A DNA stretch of 37,133 nucleotides from positions 1 through 37,133 of the forward strand of contig JAFZWG010000087.1 of the NCBI GenBank assembly GCA_017617395.1, in the 5' to 3' direction. Of the stretch, positions 13,700-26,155 are shown in pieces. This DNA is from Lachnospiraceae bacterium (GTDB lineage: Bacteria > Bacillota > Clostridia > Lachnospirales > Lachnospiraceae). The position numbers and the translations under genes were made by a program. The notes under the pieces were generated by a model. The model saw only the letters and a list, made by a program, of their open reading frames with translations. It was not told the DNA's origin and did not search any database. The stretch's first letter is position 1. Each line of letters starts with the position of its first letter.

Positions 13700-14854
13700 A
13701 TGAAGATTGTCTTGTTAATGATCGTAGTCCTGATTTCGTTTATCCTGACTCGAATCTATTACGGCAAACACTGGAAGAAGCGTCTGCAGGTGTCCCTGCA
13801 GTTCAGCCAGGAGACCGCCCACGAAGGGGAGTGGGTCTCGCTGGAGGAGGTCATCACGAACAATAAGGCGATGCCGCTTCCCGCATTGAAGGTAAAATTC
13901 CAGCTGTCCCGTTTTATGGTGATCGAGAATCAGGACATGAAGCATGTCACGGACCACTACTACCGGAACGACCTCTTCTCCATCGGCGGTTTCAAGCAGG
14001 TGACACGCCGGATTCCCGTGATGGCAACAAGGAGAGGACCGTACCGCGTGGACGGCGTGCAGGTTGTCGGCAGCGACATCTTCTTCTCCAAGCAGCACGC
14101 GTGGATTCTGGAATCCTCGACGCAGCTGTTGGTGACGCCGAAGAACTACACGATCGGCACGGGCGACCTTCCGTTCCGCACCATGTGGGGCGACGTCGTT
14201 TCGAAGTTGAAGCTGTATGAAGACTTTTCCGCATTTGCCGGACTCCGCGATTATCAGCCCGGCGACCCGATTCAGAAGATCAACTGGAAGGCATCGGCCA
14301 AGTCCGGTGACTGGCAGGTCAACTATTACGATACAACCATGGACAAGCGTCTCCACATCGTTCTGCACGCGGAGCGCGGTCCCATGTCCCACGAGGAAGA
14401 GCTTCGCGAGGAGCTTCTGCGACTGGGCGTAAGCTTCACCTCGTCGGCGCTCTCCATCGGACAGAGCGTGTCTTTGGAGTGCAATGTCTCCGGAAGTGAC
14501 GGCGGAACGCCGTTGATGGTTCCCGAGGGAAGCTCGATGGGTCATCTGAGCACGATCGAGATCGGTCTGGCCGGCATCGATTACGAGACCATCTTCGATG
14601 CAAAGCGCATGCAGCAGGCGATGCGTGAGCGCATGGAGCTCGGCGACGGCAACGATTTTTCTGCAGAGGAAGAGAACTACAACACCAGCGTTTTGTATAT
14701 CACCTACTCGCTCCGTCCGGAGTTTGAGAAGCGCATCCGCGCGAGAATCCGCACCGGCGCACCGTGCTGTCTGGTCATCATCGGAGAGAAACTTCCGACA
14801 CTTCCGCAGGAATTGATGGGCTGTACGGCGCTGTGGACGCCGAGAAACTTGTAG
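13700..14854 (+). CDS. DUF58 domain protein
   Basis: Membrane-anchored protein of 384 residues with one N-terminal helix (about 3-17, VLLMIVVLISFIL) and a long soluble part. The family signature LRDYQPGDPIQKINWKASAK lies near residues 180-200 and identifies DUF58, a von Willebrand A-like family usually paired with MoxR ATPases and transglutaminase-like proteins. The exact function is not known; related loci are thought to act in envelope-protein or metal-complex assembly. GGAG at 13690-13693 precedes the ATG. The 55-base gap before it holds a small GC hairpin (13645-13650 with 13660-13665) but no promoter that I can see. The next gene follows after nine bases. Confidence 0.85.
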   Translation: MKIVLLMIVVLISFILTRIYYGKHWKKRLQVSLQFSQETAHEGEWVSLEEVITNNKAMPLPALKVKFQLSRFMVIENQDMKHVTDHYYRNDLFSIGGFKQVTRRIPVMATRRGPYRVDGVQVVGSDIFFSKQHAWILESSTQLLVTPKNYTIGTGDLPFRTMWGDVVSKLKLYEDFSAFAGLRDYQPGDPIQKINWKASAKSGDWQVNYYDTTMDKRLHIVLHAERGPMSHEEELREELLRLGVSFTSSALSIGQSVSLECNVSGSDGGTPLMVPEGSSMGHLSTIEIGLAGIDYETIFDAKRMQQAMRERMELGDGNDFSAEEENYNTSVLYITYSLRPEFEKRIRARIRTGAPCCLVIIGEKLPTLPQELMGCTALWTPRNL

Positions 14855-14863
14855 GAGGTTGCC

Positions 14864-15946
14864 ATGAGAGATCAATTTCGAATTGAACGATATGAGATGC
14901 AGCTGCTGCGCATCCGGTTTCTTTCGGTCGGCATGACGTTGTATGCGCTGGCGGCAATTTACCTGCGCATTCCGTTTAAGGATCGTCTGTGGATGCTCTT
15001 CGGCGGTTTGTTCCTCGCGCTTTTGATCTTCTGGGGATTGTCCGGAATGGTCGGAAGCACCGTAGGAAAGAAGAGCAAGCGCGGTAAGGAGCTCACGTTC
15101 CTTCCGATCGGCGTCGGTATTCTGGCAGCGGTCATCGTCGCCGAGTACCTCGACAAGACCGAGCTGTTCTGGATGGAATCGTTTACATTGATTCTGTTCC
15201 TGGCGGTCAACATTTACGCAATCTATCTGACCAATTACGTGCGCTTTGTGTATGCGAACCGCGACGCCGATTACATGGCGGTTTACCACGTGACGCTCGG
15301 CAATACGCGCGCATATCGGCTGTGGTACATGATCACGGTATTTGCCGTTTTGTCCGTCGCAATCCTGCCCATCTGGGGACTGTTTGACGGTGCATGGTCG
15401 AACCTTTTGAAATCGCAGAAGACACCCACGGAGATCACCGCGACTCCAACGCCGATTTCGGAGGATGTCGATCCGACGCAGCAGGAGATTATCACCCCGG
15501 CGCCGGTGCAGCATGATTCCACGGGCAATCTGGCCTGGATCGGTGTTCTGATCAAGATTTTCCTTGCGGCCTGCATCATTCTGTCTGCATTTTTTATCGC
15601 CAAATCCATGCTTTCGAGGATTACCGATGCGAAGACCAGTATGGAGACCGACCGTGTCATCGACCTAAAGCGGATTCTCATCCCCATTCAGGAGGAGACG
15701 GTCCGCCTTCGCGATGACAATGTCTACGATGAGAATACTTATGCGCGCCGCATTCGACGGACCTTCAAGCGCACGGTGTTCGACCGCTTCGGCGACGTCG
15801 ATATCCCCGAGCTGACGCCGACGGATCTCCTCGGCAAGGAGTCCGAAGGCAGCGATGTTCTTCTCGAAAAATACGAAAAAGCCCGCTACTCGGATATCCC
15901 CTGTACGGCCGATGACGTGAAGGCCGTCCGCGAGCCGAAGAAGTAG
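14864..15946 (+). CDS. Multi-pass membrane protein with DUF4129-like C-terminus
   Basis: The 360-residue protein has about six hydrophobic segments: four in the first 130 residues (for example FLSVGMTLYALAAIYL and FLPIGVGILAAVIVAEYL), one near 148-170 and one near 223-245. Between the last two is a Thr/Pro-rich external stretch. The charged cytoplasmic tail (about 255-360) with YARRIRRTFKRTVF and LLEKYEKARYSDIPCTADDV resembles the DUF4129 module found at the end of bacterial transglutaminase-like membrane proteins. No transglutaminase Cys-His-Asp domain is present. GGAGG precedes the ATG. Its partner is the DUF58 gene nine bases upstream. A MoxR gene, usual in such clusters, is missing. The family call is moderate and the function unknown. 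Confidence 0.65.
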   Translation: MRDQFRIERYEMQLLRIRFLSVGMTLYALAAIYLRIPFKDRLWMLFGGLFLALLIFWGLSGMVGSTVGKKSKRGKELTFLPIGVGILAAVIVAEYLDKTELFWMESFTLILFLAVNIYAIYLTNYVRFVYANRDADYMAVYHVTLGNTRAYRLWYMITVFAVLSVAILPIWGLFDGAWSNLLKSQKTPTEITATPTPISEDVDPTQQEIITPAPVQHDSTGNLAWIGVLIKIFLAACIILSAFFIAKSMLSRITDAKTSMETDRVIDLKRILIPIQEETVRLRDDNVYDENTYARRIRRTFKRTVFDRFGDVDIPELTPTDLLGKESEGSDVLLEKYEKARYSDIPCTADDVKAVREPKK

Positions 15947-15992: not shown

Positions 15993-16021
15993 TTGACATT
16001 TCGAAAATCGTGTTGTACCAT
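15993..16021 (+). promoter_or_regulatory. Promoter of the T-box leader
   Basis: TTGACA at 15993-15998, a 17-base spacer and TACCAT at 16016-16021. AT-rich DNA precedes the -35. Transcription would start near 16028, just before Stem I of the leader. Confidence 0.75.
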
Positions 16022-16027
16022 AGCGTC

Positions 16028-16325
16028 CAACAGGGTTTTATCCCATTTTGCGAAAAGCTGGGAAGAGGAGCAGTACTTTTGCCGCTGGTTCAGAAAGCTG
16101 CCGGTTGATGCGAGGCAGTCGATGATGCAGAAGGAACTCACCTCGGAGCTGCCGATTGAAGGCCTTTAGGGCTGTGTAGATTGTGCCGGAGTCCAACCGT
16201 TACGAATGGAAGAGCATCGACTACGGTCCGTGCCCGATTGAGTGCATGAGAAATCATGAAATAGAGTGGTACCGCGCTAATTTGCGTCTCTATCTTCCCG
16301 GAGGAAGATAGGGACGTTTTTGTTT
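16028..16325 (+). promoter_or_regulatory. T-box riboswitch leader, specifier CUC (leucine)
   Basis: tRNA-sensing leader RNA. The T-box sequence AGAGTGGTACCGCG is at 16263-16276. Its UGGU bulge would pair with the acceptor end ACCA of a tRNA with discriminator A, as in tRNA-Leu. In Stem I, CTTTTGC (16076-16082) pairs with GCAGAAG (16127-16133), and a distal stem pairs 16097-16102 with 16114-16119. Right after the first of these comes GAA-CTC-A-CCTCGGAG. Aligned with the glyQS leader as I remember it (GGC-A-TTCTTGAG), the specifier is CTC at 16137-16139, decoding Leu. The antiterminator forms from ATAGAG (16261-16266) with CTCTAT (16288-16293). Uncharged tRNA-Leu should switch on the downstream gene. 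This fills the 425-base region between the DUF4129-like gene and the fusion gene. Confidence 0.9.
16285..16325 (+). terminator. Regulated terminator of the T-box leader
   Basis: A 14-bp stem (16285-16298 with 16303-16316, one G-T pair) with a four-base loop is followed by TTTTTGTTT. Its 5' arm contains the CTCTAT segment used by the competing antiterminator, which is the standard T-box transcription switch. Confidence 0.92.
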
Positions 16326-16371
16326 CTCCGGGTCAATCGGCAAGAACACAAAAGACGAAAGGAAGAAACAC

Positions 16372-18897
16372 ATGAAGATCAGTTTTTCCACACTGGGTTG
16401 TCCGGATTACTCCTGGACCGACATTTACACCATGGCAAAAGACCTCGGCTACCACGGCATTGAGATCCGCGGTCTGGGGAACGATATCCTTGCGACGAGA
16501 GCGAAGCCGTTCTCGGAGGCGCAGCTGCCGAACACGGTTGCGAAGCTCCGTGAGATCGGAATCGAGGTTTCGTGCCTCTCCTCGGGCATCGCTTTGAAGT
16601 ATCAGGCGAAGCTGCCGAAGATCATGGAGGAGCTGACGGCGTACGCTAAGCTTGCCAACGCTCTGGGAACCGCGTACATCCGCGTGCTTGCGGACGAACA
16701 TCCGGCTCCGGAGGGCGAGGTTGACGATGAGGCCATCATCGCAACTCTGAAGCAGCTGGCTCCGATCGCCGAGCAGTACAACGTGACGATGCTTGTGGAG
16801 ACGAACGGTGTGTATTCCGATACGGCCCGCCTGAAGAGAATTCTGGACGCTGTCGGCAACCGCAAGATTGCTGCTCTGTGGGATATTCATCATCCGTACC
16901 GCAACTTCGGCGAGACGCCGGAGCAGACGGTTGCGAACCTCGGCGAGTACATCAAGTACGTTCATGTGAAGGATTCCGTGTGCCGCGACGGCCGCGTTTC
17001 CTACCGTATGATGGGAGACGGAGACATGCCTCTGAAGGAGGCATTTGCCGCATTGCAGAGCATGCATTACACCGGTTACGTTTCGCTCGAGTGGGTGAAG
17101 CGCTGGTCGGCGGAGCTTGCGGACGCGTGGGTTGTGTTCCCGCAGTTCGCGAACTACATGCGCCCTTACAAGACGAAGCACAAGCACGCGCTGCAGACGG
17201 ACAACCGCGGCACGGGCAACTATATCTGGCCGAAGGAGCGTCTGATCGACTACACGTTCCCGGATGTTCTGGACCGCATCTGCGAGGTGTTCCCGACGCA
17301 GTACGCGTTCCGCTACACGGAGCTTGACTATACGAGAACGTACCCCGAGTTCCGCGATGACGTTGACAATTTTGCGAGAGCATTGATCGCCATGGACGTT
17401 AAGAAGGGCGATCACGTGGCCATCTGGGCGACCAATGTGCCCGCATGGTACATCACTTTCTGGGCTGCGACGAAGATCGGCGCCGTTTTGGTTACGGTCA
17501 ACACCGCATATAAGATTCATGAGATCGAGTACCTTCTCCGCCAGTCCGATACGCACACGCTCGTCATGATCGATGGCTTCAAGGATTGCGACTATGTCGG
17601 AACCATCAAGGAGCTGTGCCCCGAGCTTGCGACCTGTGAGCCGGGCAAGCTGGAGAGCGAGAGACTGCCGTATCTGAAGAATATCATCACCGTTGACAGC
17701 CGTCAGCCGGGTTGCTTTACCTGGGATGAGGCTGTGAAGCTCGGCGAGACCGTGCCGCTTACGGAGGTTGAGAAGCGCCGTGCCGCGGTTGACAAGCACG
17801 ACGTGTGCAACATGCAGTACACCTCGGGCACCACGGGCTTCCCGAAGGGTGTTATGCTCACGCACTACAATGTTGTCAACAACGGTAAGGCCATCGGCGA
17901 CTGCATGGATCTCTCGACCGCAGACCGCATGATGATCCAGGTTCCGATGTTCCATTGCTTCGGTATGGTGCTGGCGATGACGGCGTCCGTGACGCACGGC
18001 GTTACCATGTCGCCGATCTCGGCATTTTCCCCGAGGAAGAGTCTGGACTGCATCAACCGCGAAAAGATTACGTGCTTCCACGGCGTGCCGACGATGTTTA
18101 TCGCAATGCTGGGACACGAGAATTTCCCGAAGACCGATTTCTCTCATATGAGAACCGGTATCATGGCGGGATCGCCTTGCCCGATCAAGACGATGGAAGA
18201 GGTCATCGAGAAGATGCACATGCCCGAGATCGTTATCACCTACGGTCAGACCGAGGCTTCGCCGGCGACGACGATGAGCAAGACGAGCGATACGATCGAG
18301 CAGCGTGTCAACACGGTAGGACCTTCGATCTTCGGCGTCGAGACCAAGATTGTCGATCCCGAGACCGGCGAGGAGCTTCCGGACGGCGTTCCGGGCGAGT
18401 TCTGTGCGCGCGGCTACAACATTATGAAGGGCTACTACAAGATGCCCGAGGCGACCGCAGCCGCGATCGATGAGGACGGATGGCTCCACTCCGGCGACCT
18501 TGCGCTTCGTCGTCCCGAGGACGGTTACTACAAGATTACGGGCCGCATCAAGGATATGATCATCCGCGGCGGCGAGAACATCTACCCGAAGGAGATCGAG
18601 GACTTCCTTTACACGTACGAGAAGGTGAAGGACGTTCAGGTCATCGGCGTTCCGGATGCGGACTACGGCGAGGAGATCATGGCCTGCGTCATCCTGCAGG
18701 ACGGCTGCGAGTGCACCGAGGACGAGATCAAGGACTACGTGCGCACGCACATGGCAAAGCACAAGGTGCCGAGATACGTCGATTTTGTGGCGGAATTCCC
18801 GATGAATGCTGCCGGAAAGATCTTAAAGTACAAGATGCGCGAGGAGGCTGTGGAGCGCCACGGTCTGCATAAGGCAAACAAGATCGAAACGGCGTAA
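16372..18897 (+). CDS. Fusion: sugar-isomerase-like TIM barrel plus acyl-CoA synthetase
   Basis: An 841-residue two-domain protein. Residues 1 to about 262 form an AP-endonuclease-2/xylose-isomerase-like barrel with a full set of candidate metal ligands: E143 (LVETNG), D171 and H174 (WDIHHPYR), H198 (VHVKDS) and E240 (SLEW). From about 285 to 835 is an ANL-superfamily acyl-CoA synthetase: the AMP-binding loop YTSGTTGFPKG near 485, YGQTE, the hinge GRIKDMIIRGGENIYPKEIE near 725, and the adenylation Lys K816 in AAGKILKYK. The synthetase half resembles medium/short-chain enzymes of the ACSF2/YngI type. One uninterrupted frame, with AAAGGAAG before the ATG at 16372, argues for a true fusion. It lies alone behind a leucine T-box. 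Substrate unknown; a branched-chain acid is a reasonable guess. Confidence 0.88.
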   Translation: MKISFSTLGCPDYSWTDIYTMAKDLGYHGIEIRGLGNDILATRAKPFSEAQLPNTVAKLREIGIEVSCLSSGIALKYQAKLPKIMEELTAYAKLANALGTAYIRVLADEHPAPEGEVDDEAIIATLKQLAPIAEQYNVTMLVETNGVYSDTARLKRILDAVGNRKIAALWDIHHPYRNFGETPEQTVANLGEYIKYVHVKDSVCRDGRVSYRMMGDGDMPLKEAFAALQSMHYTGYVSLEWVKRWSAELADAWVVFPQFANYMRPYKTKHKHALQTDNRGTGNYIWPKERLIDYTFPDVLDRICEVFPTQYAFRYTELDYTRTYPEFRDDVDNFARALIAMDVKKGDHVAIWATNVPAWYITFWAATKIGAVLVTVNTAYKIHEIEYLLRQSDTHTLVMIDGFKDCDYVGTIKELCPELATCEPGKLESERLPYLKNIITVDSRQPGCFTWDEAVKLGETVPLTEVEKRRAAVDKHDVCNMQYTSGTTGFPKGVMLTHYNVVNNGKAIGDCMDLSTADRMMIQVPMFHCFGMVLAMTASVTHGVTMSPISAFSPRKSLDCINREKITCFHGVPTMFIAMLGHENFPKTDFSHMRTGIMAGSPCPIKTMEEVIEKMHMPEIVITYGQTEASPATTMSKTSDTIEQRVNTVGPSIFGVETKIVDPETGEELPDGVPGEFCARGYNIMKGYYKMPEATAAAIDEDGWLHSGDLALRRPEDGYYKITGRIKDMIIRGGENIYPKEIEDFLYTYEKVKDVQVIGVPDADYGEEIMACVILQDGCECTEDEIKDYVRTHMAKHKVPRYVDFVAEFPMNAAGKILKYKMREEAVERHGLHKANKIETA

Positions 18898-18957: not shown

Positions 18958-18989
18958 GTGTTAGCGGTTCGCAAGAGCCACACACAGAT

Positions 18990-22404: not shown

Positions 22405-22429
22405 TCACGGCACCATTTTCGGAAAATGA

Positions 22430-22601
22430 TTCCTGGGATGTTCGACACCTCCGTCATTTTTGAACCTACGAAACTGAATAAGGGATTCCTATATCTGTAT
22501 GTGGATGTCAGGCCTCCTTGCAGTGGAAGGCAGAAGCATACGTGCGGTCACCCACCTGGCAACATGCTGGGAGTCAAAAAGCGGAACCGGCATCTTGGGA
22601 A
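22430..22601 (+). ncRNA. ssrS: Structured RNA, probable 6S RNA
   Basis: The 313 bases between yajC and addB carry a long rod-like fold. The ends pair: TCCTGGGATG (22431-22440) with CATCTTGGGA (22591-22600), ten pairs including wobbles. Next, CCG (22451-22453) pairs with CGG (22582-22584), and TTTTTGA (22457-22463) with TCAAAAA (22574-22580). A large unpaired bubble follows, then an apical arm with GTATG (22497-22501) pairing CATAC (22537-22541) and a terminal hairpin GCCTCC...GGAAGGC (22512-22531). A closing stem, big central bubble and apical arm over about 170 bases match 6S RNA, which binds sigma-70-type RNA polymerase. Position and sequence also agree with my memory of clostridial 6S genes near addB. 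No clear promoter was found, so it may be processed from the yajC transcript. Confidence 0.6.
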
Positions 22602-22615
22602 CAAAAGAAAAACAA

Positions 22616-22649
22616 GGGCAAACATTCTCGAACGGATGTTTGCCTTTTT
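22616..22649 (+). terminator. Terminator after the structured RNA
   Basis: A 9-bp stem, GGCAAACAT (22617-22625) with ATGTTTGCC (22636-22644), has a 10-base loop and is followed by TTTTT. It ends transcription from yajC and the RNA before addB. Its 3' arm overlaps the -35 of the addB promoter. Confidence 0.88.
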
Positions 22650-22668
22650 CAGTATCCTGTGCTATACT
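22640..22668 (+). promoter_or_regulatory. Promoter of addBA, overlapping the terminator
   Basis: TTGCCT at 22640-22645, a 17-base spacer and TATACT at 22663-22668. The -35 lies inside the 3' arm of the preceding terminator, a compact arrangement. Confidence 0.7.
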
Positions 22669-22717
22669 GAACAAAACGGGTTTTGCCGTGGTAATCGGGC
22701 CCGGACGGGAGGAAGGT

Positions 22718-25700
22718 ATGAAGGGAGATCTTTGGCTGATCATCGGAAGTTCGGCGCAGAAGAACCGGGAATACTTGCTTAAGAATATGCTTGCGAAGAG
22801 CAAAACAGGCGCTTCGGAAGTGTTTTTCTTCGTGCCCGAACAGGCGAACCTGGATGCCGAGCGCGACCTGTGCGCGATGACCGGCGGCGGATGCGTAATG
22901 AACATTGATATCGTGAGTTTCCGGCGCCTTGCGTACCGCCTGGTGGACGAGCTCGGAGACCGGATTCCGCCGGTTCTGGATGAGGTCGGAAAGAGCCTTC
23001 TTCTGCAGAAGGTCATGACGGAACACGGCAAGCAGATGCCGTTGTTCGGCGGAAAGATCAACAAGCCCGGCTTTGTCGAGGAGGTCAAGTCGCTTCTCTC
23101 GGAGCTGGTTTCGTACGAGGTCACTTCGGAGCAGCTTCGGCAGGCCGCGGAGACGGCAGGGACGTCTGACCATCTGCTGGCCGGCAAGCTCGGGGAAGTA
23201 TCGGATATCTACACGTGGTTCCGTGAGCGTTGCGGCGGCGAGCAGATCATGGAGGTCGATATCTACCGCGCGATGAGGCCGCTGGCGGAGGAGTCGAAAC
23301 GACTTCTCGGCAGCACTTTGTACTTCGACGGTTACACCGGCTTTACGCCGACGCAGCAGAGCCTTCTGTCCACATTGTTCCGCCGCTGCGGCGACATTTA
23401 CGTCACCGTCACGATCGACCCCGCGGAGTGCCGCGAGGATGGCGACGGTGCGGGAAGGCGCGGCGCCAATTGCTTCCGCATCAGCCGGGAAATGATGGCC
23501 TCCCTGCGCCGCCTGGCAACGGAAACGGACAAGACGGTGCGAATTCTGGAGGTTTCGGACGCAGCCGATGAAGGCGGTGCCGGTGCATCGCAGACACGCG
23601 ATCCGGAGCTTGTATTTTTGTGTGATTCGCTGTTCAGGCGCGGGCGCGGAGTGTACCGCGGGGAGCCGACGGGCGCGGTACGGCTTGTGAGTGCGACCGA
23701 CCGTGAGTCGGAGGTGTTGTCGTGCGTTCGCGAGATTGTCCGCCTCGTGCGCAAGGACGGGCTTCGCTACCGGGACATCGGAATCGTTTGCGGGGATGTG
23801 CCGAGTTACGCGGAGTTGTTGCGAAAGTATTGTTCCGAGGCGGGAGTGCCGTTCTTCATCGACCAGACGTCGGAAGTGACGGACAACGCCTTGGTTGACT
23901 ATATCCGAAGCCTTCTTCGGATGATCTTATCGGACATGCGGACGGACCGCGTGATGCGGTGGCTTCGCAATCCGATCAACAAGTATGATGCGGACACGTT
24001 GTCGTATCTCGAGAATTTCCTTATTGCGCGCGGAATCCGCGGCCGCTCGGCGTGGGAGAAGGGCTTCTTCGGCGATTACGGCGGAAAGCACGAGACGCAT
24101 GCGACGGAGTGCATTGCGCTCGCAAAGGAGATTGCAGAGACGCTTTCGGAGGTGTCCGAGGCGCTTCGAAGCAAGGATACGGATGTGCGCGGCAAGACGG
24201 CCGCGTTGTACCGCTTTTTGGAGAAGCAGGGCGTGTACGAGCGCACGCAGGAGCTCTCGGAGGAGCTTTTGTCGGAAAATGTACCCTGGCACGCCAGACG
24301 CGCCGGCGAGTACCGCTCGGTGTACCGCGCAGTCACGGAATTGTTCACGCGTATGCATGATCTGATGCCGGACCAGAAGATTACGCTCAAGGATTTTGCG
24401 GATCTCTGTGACTCGGGCTTTGCTGACCTGCGCCTAGGCGTGATCCCGCCCGAACCGGACTGTGTGACGATCGGTGATCGGAAGCGCTCGCGAATCGGGG
24501 TTGTGAAGCACCTGTTCTTCTTAGGAATGAACGAGGGCTTTGTCCCCGGTGCCAAGAAGAGCAGTCTGCTCCTTAGCGAGAGCGAGCGGCGGACGTTGAA
24601 GGAAACTTACGGAATCGTTCTGTCCGACACCGAGAAGGAAGCGGTGGATACGGAGGAATTTTACATTTTGCTCACGCTGCAGAAGCCGACGGAGACGTTG
24701 ACGATCTCGTGGTGCACGGAGGGCGAAGGCGGAAAGAGCGCGGCACCCTCGTATGTCGTAAACCGCATCCGGCGGCTCTTAAGCGACCGGAACGCAGCGT
24801 TGGCGAACGGTGATGCCGCGGACTTCTTCGAGCGGATAGCAGTCGACGGCGGATTGTCGGAACTGATGCACAACTACGCGGTTGCGTCCGGACGGGACCC
24901 GGTGACGACCCTCTCCGGGGAGGAGACCGCGGACTGCCGTGCGTTGTACCGCTGGTATTTCGGCGGGGAGAGCGGGGAGACGCCGCTTTCAACGGAGTTG
25001 ATGGACGAGGCAGAGAGCGGGTTTGCGAGGGAGCAGACGATCTCTCCGGAACTGGCGAAGGCACTTCATCCGAAGGGAACCGTGTTCTCGGTATCCCGCA
25101 TGCAGAGCTATGCGGAATGCCCGTATCGGCATTTCCTGGAGTATGACCTCGGCGTCGAAGACCGCCGCACGTACGAGCCCACGCAGATAGAGAAGGGCAA
25201 CGTCTACCATGCGATGACGGAGTATGTCGAAAACCGCATGGCGGAGCTTGCGGCGAGAGGTGAGACAGTGACGGAGGAGACGCTTGCATCGCTCGTTTCG
25301 GAGGCGGAGGAGCACGTCAAGGGCGATCCGGCCAACGAGTGCTTCTTAGGGGACGGCCGCAGCCGGTATCTCTTGCACGCCTTGGCGGAAAATCTTCATT
25401 TTGCGCTTCCGCGGATGGCGAAGCGGCAAGCGAAGGGAACGTACCGGTTTGCCGGAGCGGAGGAGGCGTTTGACCGGCCGCTCGGAGAGTACCGTTTAAA
25501 GGGCAAGATCGACCGCGTGGAGTACGCCAAGGACGGCGATGTCACGTACATCAAGGTCGTGGACTTTAAGTCCTCTCCGCGCAAGTTTGACCAAAAGGCG
25601 GTGGCGGACGGCATGAATCTGCAGCTGCCGATCTACTTAAGCGAGAAGGAGCGGGCACTTCGCGAGGAGGGCATCACGGCTGTGCCTGCGGCAGGATTTT

Positions 25701-26155
25701 ACGAGTTCTTTAACCGCAGACCGATCGAGGGTCTGCCCGGCGAGGAGAGTGCGAAGGCGGTGGACGAGAGTGCGAAACCGCTTGGTTTCTTTGCCATGGA
25801 GGACGCCACGGCGGCGTCGCAGGCAACGTGTGCGGAGGATAAGTATCTCCGCCAGCTCGACACCGGTGTAACGGGCGGCGAGTACGCCTCGGAGGCGGTG
25901 AATCTGAAGGTGAACGCGCGTGGGAAGCTGTCCGGCGACGGCATCTCCGAGAGTGCGATGAAGGAAGTGATCAAGACTGCTGACGAGGTGCTTTTGGCGG
26001 AGGTCGGAAAGATCGCCGGCGGAAGCATCGGCATCGTTCCGTACACAAAGGACGCCTGCAAATACTGCGACCAGGCCGGCGTGTGCCGCAAAAACGCGAT
26101 GGAGTTCGTGCCGTACCGCAGAGGCGCGCAGGAGGACGGAGGTGAGGACGAATGA
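22718..26155 (+). CDS. addB: Helicase-exonuclease AddAB, subunit AddB
   Basis: Subunit of the AddAB complex that resects double-strand breaks and loads RecA. The 1145-residue length is normal. An N-terminal inactivated helicase-like region is followed by the C-terminal RecB-family nuclease (about 800-1130) with the metal motif VVDFKSS (D949, K951) and QLPIYL. The four iron-sulfur cysteines are present: C801 (ECPYRHF) and C1114, C1117, C1123 (CKYCDQAGVC). Oddly, the N-terminus IIGSSAQKNREY lacks the GxGK[ST] Walker A that AddB proteins usually show here. The frame opens far upstream at 22499, but that part crosses the structured RNA, terminator and promoter. GGGAGGAAGG and the ATG at 22718 give the correct start. 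It overlaps addA by four bases. Confidence 0.93.
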   Translation: MKGDLWLIIGSSAQKNREYLLKNMLAKSKTGASEVFFFVPEQANLDAERDLCAMTGGGCVMNIDIVSFRRLAYRLVDELGDRIPPVLDEVGKSLLLQKVMTEHGKQMPLFGGKINKPGFVEEVKSLLSELVSYEVTSEQLRQAAETAGTSDHLLAGKLGEVSDIYTWFRERCGGEQIMEVDIYRAMRPLAEESKRLLGSTLYFDGYTGFTPTQQSLLSTLFRRCGDIYVTVTIDPAECREDGDGAGRRGANCFRISREMMASLRRLATETDKTVRILEVSDAADEGGAGASQTRDPELVFLCDSLFRRGRGVYRGEPTGAVRLVSATDRESEVLSCVREIVRLVRKDGLRYRDIGIVCGDVPSYAELLRKYCSEAGVPFFIDQTSEVTDNALVDYIRSLLRMILSDMRTDRVMRWLRNPINKYDADTLSYLENFLIARGIRGRSAWEKGFFGDYGGKHETHATECIALAKEIAETLSEVSEALRSKDTDVRGKTAALYRFLEKQGVYERTQELSEELLSENVPWHARRAGEYRSVYRAVTELFTRMHDLMPDQKITLKDFADLCDSGFADLRLGVIPPEPDCVTIGDRKRSRIGVVKHLFFLGMNEGFVPGAKKSSLLLSESERRTLKETYGIVLSDTEKEAVDTEEFYILLTLQKPTETLTISWCTEGEGGKSAAPSYVVNRIRRLLSDRNAALANGDAADFFERIAVDGGLSELMHNYAVASGRDPVTTLSGEETADCRALYRWYFGGESGETPLSTELMDEAESGFAREQTISPELAKALHPKGTVFSVSRMQSYAECPYRHFLEYDLGVEDRRTYEPTQIEKGNVYHAMTEYVENRMAELAARGETVTEETLASLVSEAEEHVKGDPANECFLGDGRSRYLLHALAENLHFALPRMAKRQAKGTYRFAGAEEAFDRPLGEYRLKGKIDRVEYAKDGDVTYIKVVDFKSSPRKFDQKAVADGMNLQLPIYLSEKERALREEGITAVPAAGFYEFFNRRPIEGLPGEESAKAVDESAKPLGFFAMEDATAASQATCAEDKYLRQLDTGVTGGEYASEAVNLKVNARGKLSGDGISESAMKEVIKTADEVLLAEVGKIAGGSIGIVPYTKDACKYCDQAGVCRKNAMEFVPYRRGAQEDGGEDE

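Follow-up and report, generated by a model that had tools for sequence, protein, structure and literature searches.

The window analyzed here comprises positions 1 to 37,133 of contig JAFZWG010000087.1 of a Lachnospiraceae bacterium, whose 2.34 Mb metagenome-assembled genome is hereafter referred to as G000. Located on its forward strand is a gene for a xylose isomerase-like TIM barrel fused to an ANL acyl-CoA synthetase, and preceding this gene is a T-box leader RNA with a leucine specifier. The arrangement probably serves a route in which leucine starvation induces the activation of isovalerate, its reductive carboxylation to 2-ketoisocaproate, and the subsequent formation of leucine. The features of the locus are listed in Table 1.

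As the original prediction had it, the T-box is complete. The match to the Rfam model RF00230 extends over positions 1-219 of the 219 in the model and scores 110.9 bits (E = 7e-24) against a gathering score of 93, which places the leader within the family; none of the remaining Rfam T-box matches in the window attains that score. The specifier columns of the covariance alignment hold the CUC codon that had been assigned by inspection. The terminator arms (16284-16298 and 16303-16317) fold with a calculated energy of -24.1 kcal/mol (z = -5.3), a value equaled by none of 200 shuffled sequences. The antiterminator folded alone is weak (-7.9 kcal/mol, z = -1.4, equaled by 16 of 200 shuffles). The two structures overlap in their bases and thus compete with one another in the manner of a T-box. 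A gap of ∼50 nucleotides separates the end of the terminator from the start codon at 16372, and the gene looks monocistronic because a tRNA-Trp comes next at 18989. The UGGU sequence for the tRNA acceptor end is likewise present, but its fit to A73 of tRNA-Leu, which had been offered as evidence for leucine, has been set aside as uninformative since A73 is common to the leucine, isoleucine, and phenylalanine tRNAs.

The architecture first proposed for the protein is borne out by Pfam, with all three domains scoring above their cut-offs. The N-terminal TIM barrel (AP_endonuc_2, PF01261) is delineated by residues 22-245 (104.3 bits, cut-off 31.1), and the ANL synthetase is formed by AMP-binding (PF00501, residues 302-689, 314.3 bits) followed by AMP-binding_C (PF13193, residues 741-816, 63.5 bits). 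Among NCBIfam models, PRK12583 (a fatty acid CoA ligase subfamily) fits the synthetase half best, but its 701 bits lie below the cut-off of 832, and the protein is therefore not assigned to that subfamily; among the 25 models listed of 114, none passes its cut-off for the synthetase. Comparison with solved structures did not point to a substrate for the fusion. In the TIM barrel, Glu 143, Asp 171, His 174, and Glu 240 are invariant in 33 sequences, and residue 198 is histidine in 28 of these and glutamine in five. By analogy, Glu 143, Asp 171, His 198, and Glu 240 are the four putative metal ligands, most of which are retained.

Table 1 Features of the T-box locus in the window.
Feature	Position	Strand	Basis
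Candidate sigma-70-type promoter (TTGACA, 17 nucleotides, TACCAT)	15993..16021	+	By eye from the sequence
T-box leader RNA, Stem I to antiterminator	16051..16294	+	Rfam RF00230
Specifier codon CUC (leucine)	16137-16139	+	Specifier columns, Rfam covariance alignment
T-box sequence AGAGUGGUACCGCG	16263-16276	+	Sequence and Rfam alignment
UGGU for the tRNA acceptor end	16267-16270	+	Sequence and Rfam alignment
Intrinsic terminator, 15-base-pair hairpin and U run	16284..16325	+	Fold and shuffles
841-residue fusion, xylose isomerase-like TIM barrel and ANL acyl-CoA synthetase	16372..18897	+	Pfam

Named genomes contain 589 relatives of the fusion. The best 80 (70-99% identical) were considered, and 78 of these have at least 250 nucleotides of upstream sequence. 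A scan of these 78 upstream regions, with up to two mismatches permitted, revealed a T-box-like motif in 23; in the controls it occurred on four of 78 reverse strands and, at 700-1400 nucleotides upstream, in one of 71 loci. Three motifs with two mismatches (L038, L053, and L092) were dropped as chance, leaving 20 of 78, with 12 at or above the Rfam gathering score and eight below it. A T-box motif below the gathering score is carried by L077, the copy of Candidatus Formimonas warabiya. Close kin of the window among these 20 are L014-L016 (L016 at 99%). The original prediction had proposed tabulating the specifiers of T-box-linked copies, and all 20 encode leucine, 19 as CUC and one as CUG (L093); nine were read from the printed Rfam alignment and 11 by hand from the stem pairing. 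Likewise, CUC is found in 19 of 19 aligned fusion leaders from the same genus. Because the specifiers of the relatives are invariant or synonymous they support leucine specificity, and on sequence grounds this reading appears robust. In the protein tree (79 rows), presence of the T-box requires 12 changes, at least nine of which are forced by well-supported branches. One fusion, L064, belongs to a metagenome-assembled genome labeled Methanobrevibacter yet lies within the Clostridia on this tree, perhaps because of a contaminating contig.

The other leaders of G000 serve as controls for reading the specifier. The genome has 13 Rfam T-box matches, five of them above the gathering score. Eight of the 12 lying outside the window precede genes for ValRS, ProRS, TrpE, ThrRS, TyrRS, MetRS, IleRS, and TrpB (open reading frames named by eye), and in each of the eight the specifier agrees with the downstream gene, six by Rfam alignment and those of IleRS and TrpB by eye. 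The other four are L002, L003, and L007, described below, and L006. The last (G000:C93:10885-11096, minus strand; 92.7 bits, just below gathering) has ACC in the specifier columns, and its target by eye is a 2'-5' RNA ligase-like domain with a GNAT acetyltransferase.

The distribution of genes for de novo synthesis was followed in 22 genomes of the genus, G000 included, and in 19 from outside it. Within the genus, the fusion is encoded in 19 of the 22 genomes (E values up to 1e-150) and is absent from G006, G011, and G017. A LeuC-sized frame of the aconitase family occurs there only in G004, G006, G011, and G017; it was named LeuC from the length of the frame and, additionally, from the neighboring genes in G004 and G006. 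ilvC is present in these same four genomes and in G015. All three genomes without the fusion thus have both LeuC and ilvC, whereas LeuC is missing from 18 of the 19 carriers and ilvC from 17. Of the carriers without LeuC, ten have a completeness of 95% or more. The Fisher p values over the 22 genomes are 0.0026 for LeuC and 0.0065 for ilvC. In G000 itself neither a LeuC-sized frame nor ilvC was found.

In two of the fusion-less genomes a related leader lies before leu-ilv genes. A CUC T-box of 120.7 bits in G006 is followed by leuA, ilvB, ilvH, ilvC, ilvD, leuC, leuD, and leuB (open reading frames by eye), and one of 118.0 bits in G017 by leuA, ilvC, leuC, and leuB, a stretch of N separating the latter leader from leuA. 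No T-box was found before the leu-ilv genes of G004 by a strict pattern, one that also overlooked the G006 and G017 leaders. A leader tree was calculated from 26 rows; of the 17 fusion leaders that fall outside the clade of the window, eight were included. The two leu leaders cluster with four fusion leaders of that clade (support 98/98), to which they are 76-81% identical as compared to 61-73% for 20 other leaders. In L017 and L088, by contrast, the fusion leaders cluster with the isoleucine leaders of G000 (support 99/100). Ten of the 23 branches in this tree are unsupported. Since the leader of the window groups with leu leaders and those of L017 and L088 with isoleucine leaders, the tree suggests that leucine control of the fusion gene arose twice.

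T-boxes also lead two other CoA ligases in G000. L003 (97.8 bits) and L007 (91.2 bits, below gathering) are isoleucine T-boxes with AUC specifiers, and the target of both is a helix-turn-helix/cupin/acyl-CoA synthetase fusion, hereafter cupin-MbcS, for which the best NCBIfam model is MbcS at 430 bits, below its cut-off of 850. The two loci lie on separate contigs with genes that are 97% identical, and they may be strain variants. AUC is found in all 18 distinct cupin-MbcS leaders that were aligned. In L099 and L110 the helix-turn-helix and cupin are likewise fused to the synthetase, such that a regulator-like part is built in; the neighbor version in L116 is unfused. At L206:1241-1414 a Clostridiales-1 RNA (Rfam RF01699, 91.3 bits) lies between the isoleucine T-box and cupin-MbcS and may account for the wide gap between them. 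In six of 80 loci (L062, L020, L045, L048, L051, and L081), an MbcS-type gene is found 3 kb or less from the fusion; that of L062 is divergent from the fusion and has its own isoleucine T-box, and those of L020, L045, L048, and L051 are positioned directly upstream. Other neighbors of the fusion are ilvD (L038) and a partial match resembling leuA (L063).

The third ligase is a phenylacetate-CoA ligase (PaaK), truncated by the contig end and preceded by the L002 T-box (106.6 bits). With the Rfam alignment, which pairs CGGG with CCCG, its specifier is UCC (serine). With the pairing of GGGA and UCCC, as in the TyrRS leader of G000 with the same GGGAACCAGUAC, it is UUC (phenylalanine). From its sequence the leader is best read as UUC, which fits the gene, albeit with less certainty than the isoleucine leaders. 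The 16 PaaK leaders cannot settle the matter because the specifier region is unchanged in all of them. The motif scan found no T-box before the PaaK orthologues of G004, G006, G011, G015, and G017. Given that the strict regular expression had overlooked the leu-ilv leaders of G006 and G017, which Rfam detects, 20 of the 25 earlier-negative loci (12 PaaK, seven MbcS-type, and the G028 fusion) were re-scanned with up to two mismatches, and no T-box was found in any of the 20. PaaK lies within 3 kb of the fusion in one of 80 loci (L044).

A ferredoxin-dependent oxidoreductase, which the original prediction called for, is indeed encoded in G000, namely IorAB (IorA, 717 bits against a cut-off of 651). 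A second candidate is provided by the isoleucine branch. In relatives, the order is T-box, cupin-MbcS, P-loop ATPase, ferredoxin, VorB, Vor beta, and Vor gamma, with an additional open reading frame of ∼460 residues in G001 and G005. On the basis of family scans of the G015 and G006 genes, VorB scores 525 bits against a cut-off of 399, and the best models for Vor beta and gamma lie below their cut-offs; the ferredoxin was identified by Pfam in G015. Of the 18 genomes with cupin-MbcS, 12 have by coordinates a POR gamma match that follows this gene on its own strand, and in the other six it is on another contig or was not seen. In L263 and L264, another phenylacetate-CoA ligase, shorter than the first (assigned by coordinates in L264), is in line with IorA and IorB, and no T-box motif was observed in these stretches.

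Taken together, three observations support the isovalerate salvage first proposed for this locus, the choice of substrate remaining our inference from regulation and gene content: the fusion anticorrelates with LeuC and ilvC within the genus, a related leucine leader precedes leu-ilv genes in two fusion-less genomes, and T-boxes lead two other CoA ligases. On the basis of the T-box family, uncharged tRNA-Leu would bind the leader and favor the antiterminator, and the fusion enzyme would be made. The enzyme would convert isovalerate acquired from the gut or rumen to isovaleryl-CoA. Either IorAB or a VorB-type complex, which is whole in relatives, would then carboxylate this thioester reductively to 2-ketoisocaproate, and transamination would yield leucine, such that the gene would in effect serve amino acid biosynthesis. 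The reductive direction is favored, by argument rather than data, because running the reaction oxidatively under shortage would waste a scarce amino acid. The leucine branch would be one of a set, together with the isoleucine T-box, its MbcS-like ligase and VorB line, and the PaaK T-box read as phenylalanine, and this set would stand in for the missing LeuC and ilvC in most members of the genus. We lean, with less assurance than for the leucine route itself, toward a broader history in which the set has taken over from the de novo synthesis of branched-chain amino acids in most of the genus, whose members are gut and rumen Clostridia. The leader of the lost leu-ilv operon would now control the fusion, and in a second lineage the specifier of an isoleucine leader would have changed so as to confer leucine control. 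The outcome would be the fixation of CO2 onto acids that neighboring organisms release, yielding essential amino acids and gated by tRNA charging.

Several observations weigh against this interpretation. The aconitase gene tree provides only two independent contrasts, such that significance is unreachable. G004 has the fusion, LeuC, and ilvC together. Outside the genus, G028 has the fusion (67%) together with both ilvC and a LeuC-sized frame, no T-box being found there, and eight of the 19 genomes have neither ilvC nor the fusion; the replacement pattern is therefore local to the genus. (G032, also from outside, has a synthetase-only match together with a LeuC-sized frame and ilvC.) No convincing T-box was found upstream in 58 of the 78 relatives, the Ruminococcus flavefaciens copies included, and thus what the enzyme does is not dependent on this leader. 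G000 is 85% complete. An orphan LeuA remains in it; the orphan leuA at L111:5134-6873 matches PRK03739 with 744 bits (cut-off 455), and its adjoining genes look unrelated. The isoleucine line of G000 is fragmented over separate contigs, with the T-box, cupin-MbcS, and P-loop ATPase on C70 and POR gamma at the end of C96. The assignment of PaaK to serine or phenylalanine depends upon the pairing chosen, and the salvage scheme does not account for the TIM domain.

Alternatively, the main use of isovaleryl-CoA might be to prime the synthesis of iso-branched fatty acids for the membrane, with the T-box offsetting the loss of leucine-derived primer in shortage. We consider this unlikely, even though the S. 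aureus enzyme MbcS, whose model best matches the isoleucine-branch ligase, serves fatty acid synthesis (PMC10026030), a point that also weighs against salvage, and Prevotella lipids show features of supplied short-chain acids (PMC7709123). The Prevotella study also states that isovaleric acid left little lipid trace and suggests its use for amino acid synthesis. A primer function also leaves unexplained the PaaK T-box, the oxidoreductase in line with the isoleucine-led ligase, and the LeuC/ilvC pattern of the genus. Primer use and leucine salvage can coexist. Less probable still is that the substrate is another leucine-linked acid, such as 2-hydroxyisocaproate or 3-methylcrotonate, or that the TIM domain carries the main activity. 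The four invariant TIM residues and the synthetase scores below every listed NCBIfam cut-off would be in keeping with such a function, but the parallel systems with isoleucine and aryl ligases argue for an acid that is simply activated and then carboxylated. That the T-box is a chance or inherited neighbor with no functional link to leucine is very improbable, for despite the many relatives without one and a motif ∼450-470 nucleotides from the start codon in L052 and L057, it has been repeatedly gained or lost yet always with a leucine specifier, the synonymous CUG included, and in the window the terminator closely precedes the gene.

Elsewhere in the window, a 6S RNA (76.3 bits) at 22427-22605 overlaps the listed open reading frames 22426-22782 and 22499-26155. 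Upstream of the T-box, at 13700-15946, are two adjacent open reading frames of 384 and 360 residues with no Pfam or NCBIfam match at E = 0.001.

If the salvage of isovalerate is correct, candidate genes and a regulatory logic are at hand for the acid-activating step of a rumen pathway described in the 1960s, with tRNA-sensing leaders tied to three ligases and to ferredoxin oxidoreductases of two kinds. Amino acid cross-feeding would become predictable from genome sequence, and T-box specifiers would act as built-in product labels for acyl-CoA synthetases that are otherwise hard to annotate. The conversions of isovalerate to leucine and of 2-methylbutyrate to isoleucine in the rumen are cited in PMC7356843, and that of phenylacetate to phenylalanine appears in its reference list. 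For Prevotella, a 2020 study holds that the reaction from acid to branched-chain amino acid is not proven and is possible via a ferredoxin oxidoreductase (PMC7709123). According to Wels et al. (2008), the vast majority of T-box genes function in transport, synthesis, and tRNA charging, and the terms CoA and acyl do not occur in the main text of that study (PMC2494555). In the openly licensed literature, the TBDB tables lying outside the search, no prior description was found of a T-box-led acyl-CoA synthetase, phenylacetate-CoA ligase, or ferredoxin oxidoreductase, nor do the accessible parts of PMC7356843, PMC11304471, and PMC7709123 hold an earlier account of an isovalerate-to-leucine pathway under a T-box.

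With regard to known systems, the N-terminal domain of the fusion shows weak similarity to AsbF (E = 8e-06) and D-tagatose 3-epimerase (E = 1e-04); Glu 143, Asp 171, and Glu 240 are invariant, and the domain of the window differs in being fused to an acyl-CoA synthetase. The MbcS model from S. aureus is the best, albeit below its cut-off, for cupin-MbcS, whereas the best for the fusion is PRK12583. S. aureus MbcS itself acts best on 2-methylbutyrate and isobutyrate and only poorly on isovalerate (PMC10026030), which fits a division of labor between the isoleucine-branch ligase and the fusion. The leader architecture and the CUC specifier are common to T-box leaders of ilv-leu and leuA genes, including the related ones in two genomes of the same genus; a leuA T-box is also described for Geobacter (PMC2700814). 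The target in the window is, in contrast, the acyl-CoA synthetase fusion. A further parallel is the carboxylation of branched and aryl acids to amino acids in the rumen studied by Allison and colleagues, which involves the same three amino acids in a similar habitat. As cited in PMC7356843, that work was physiological, whereas the present analysis of the window proposes the genes and their regulation.

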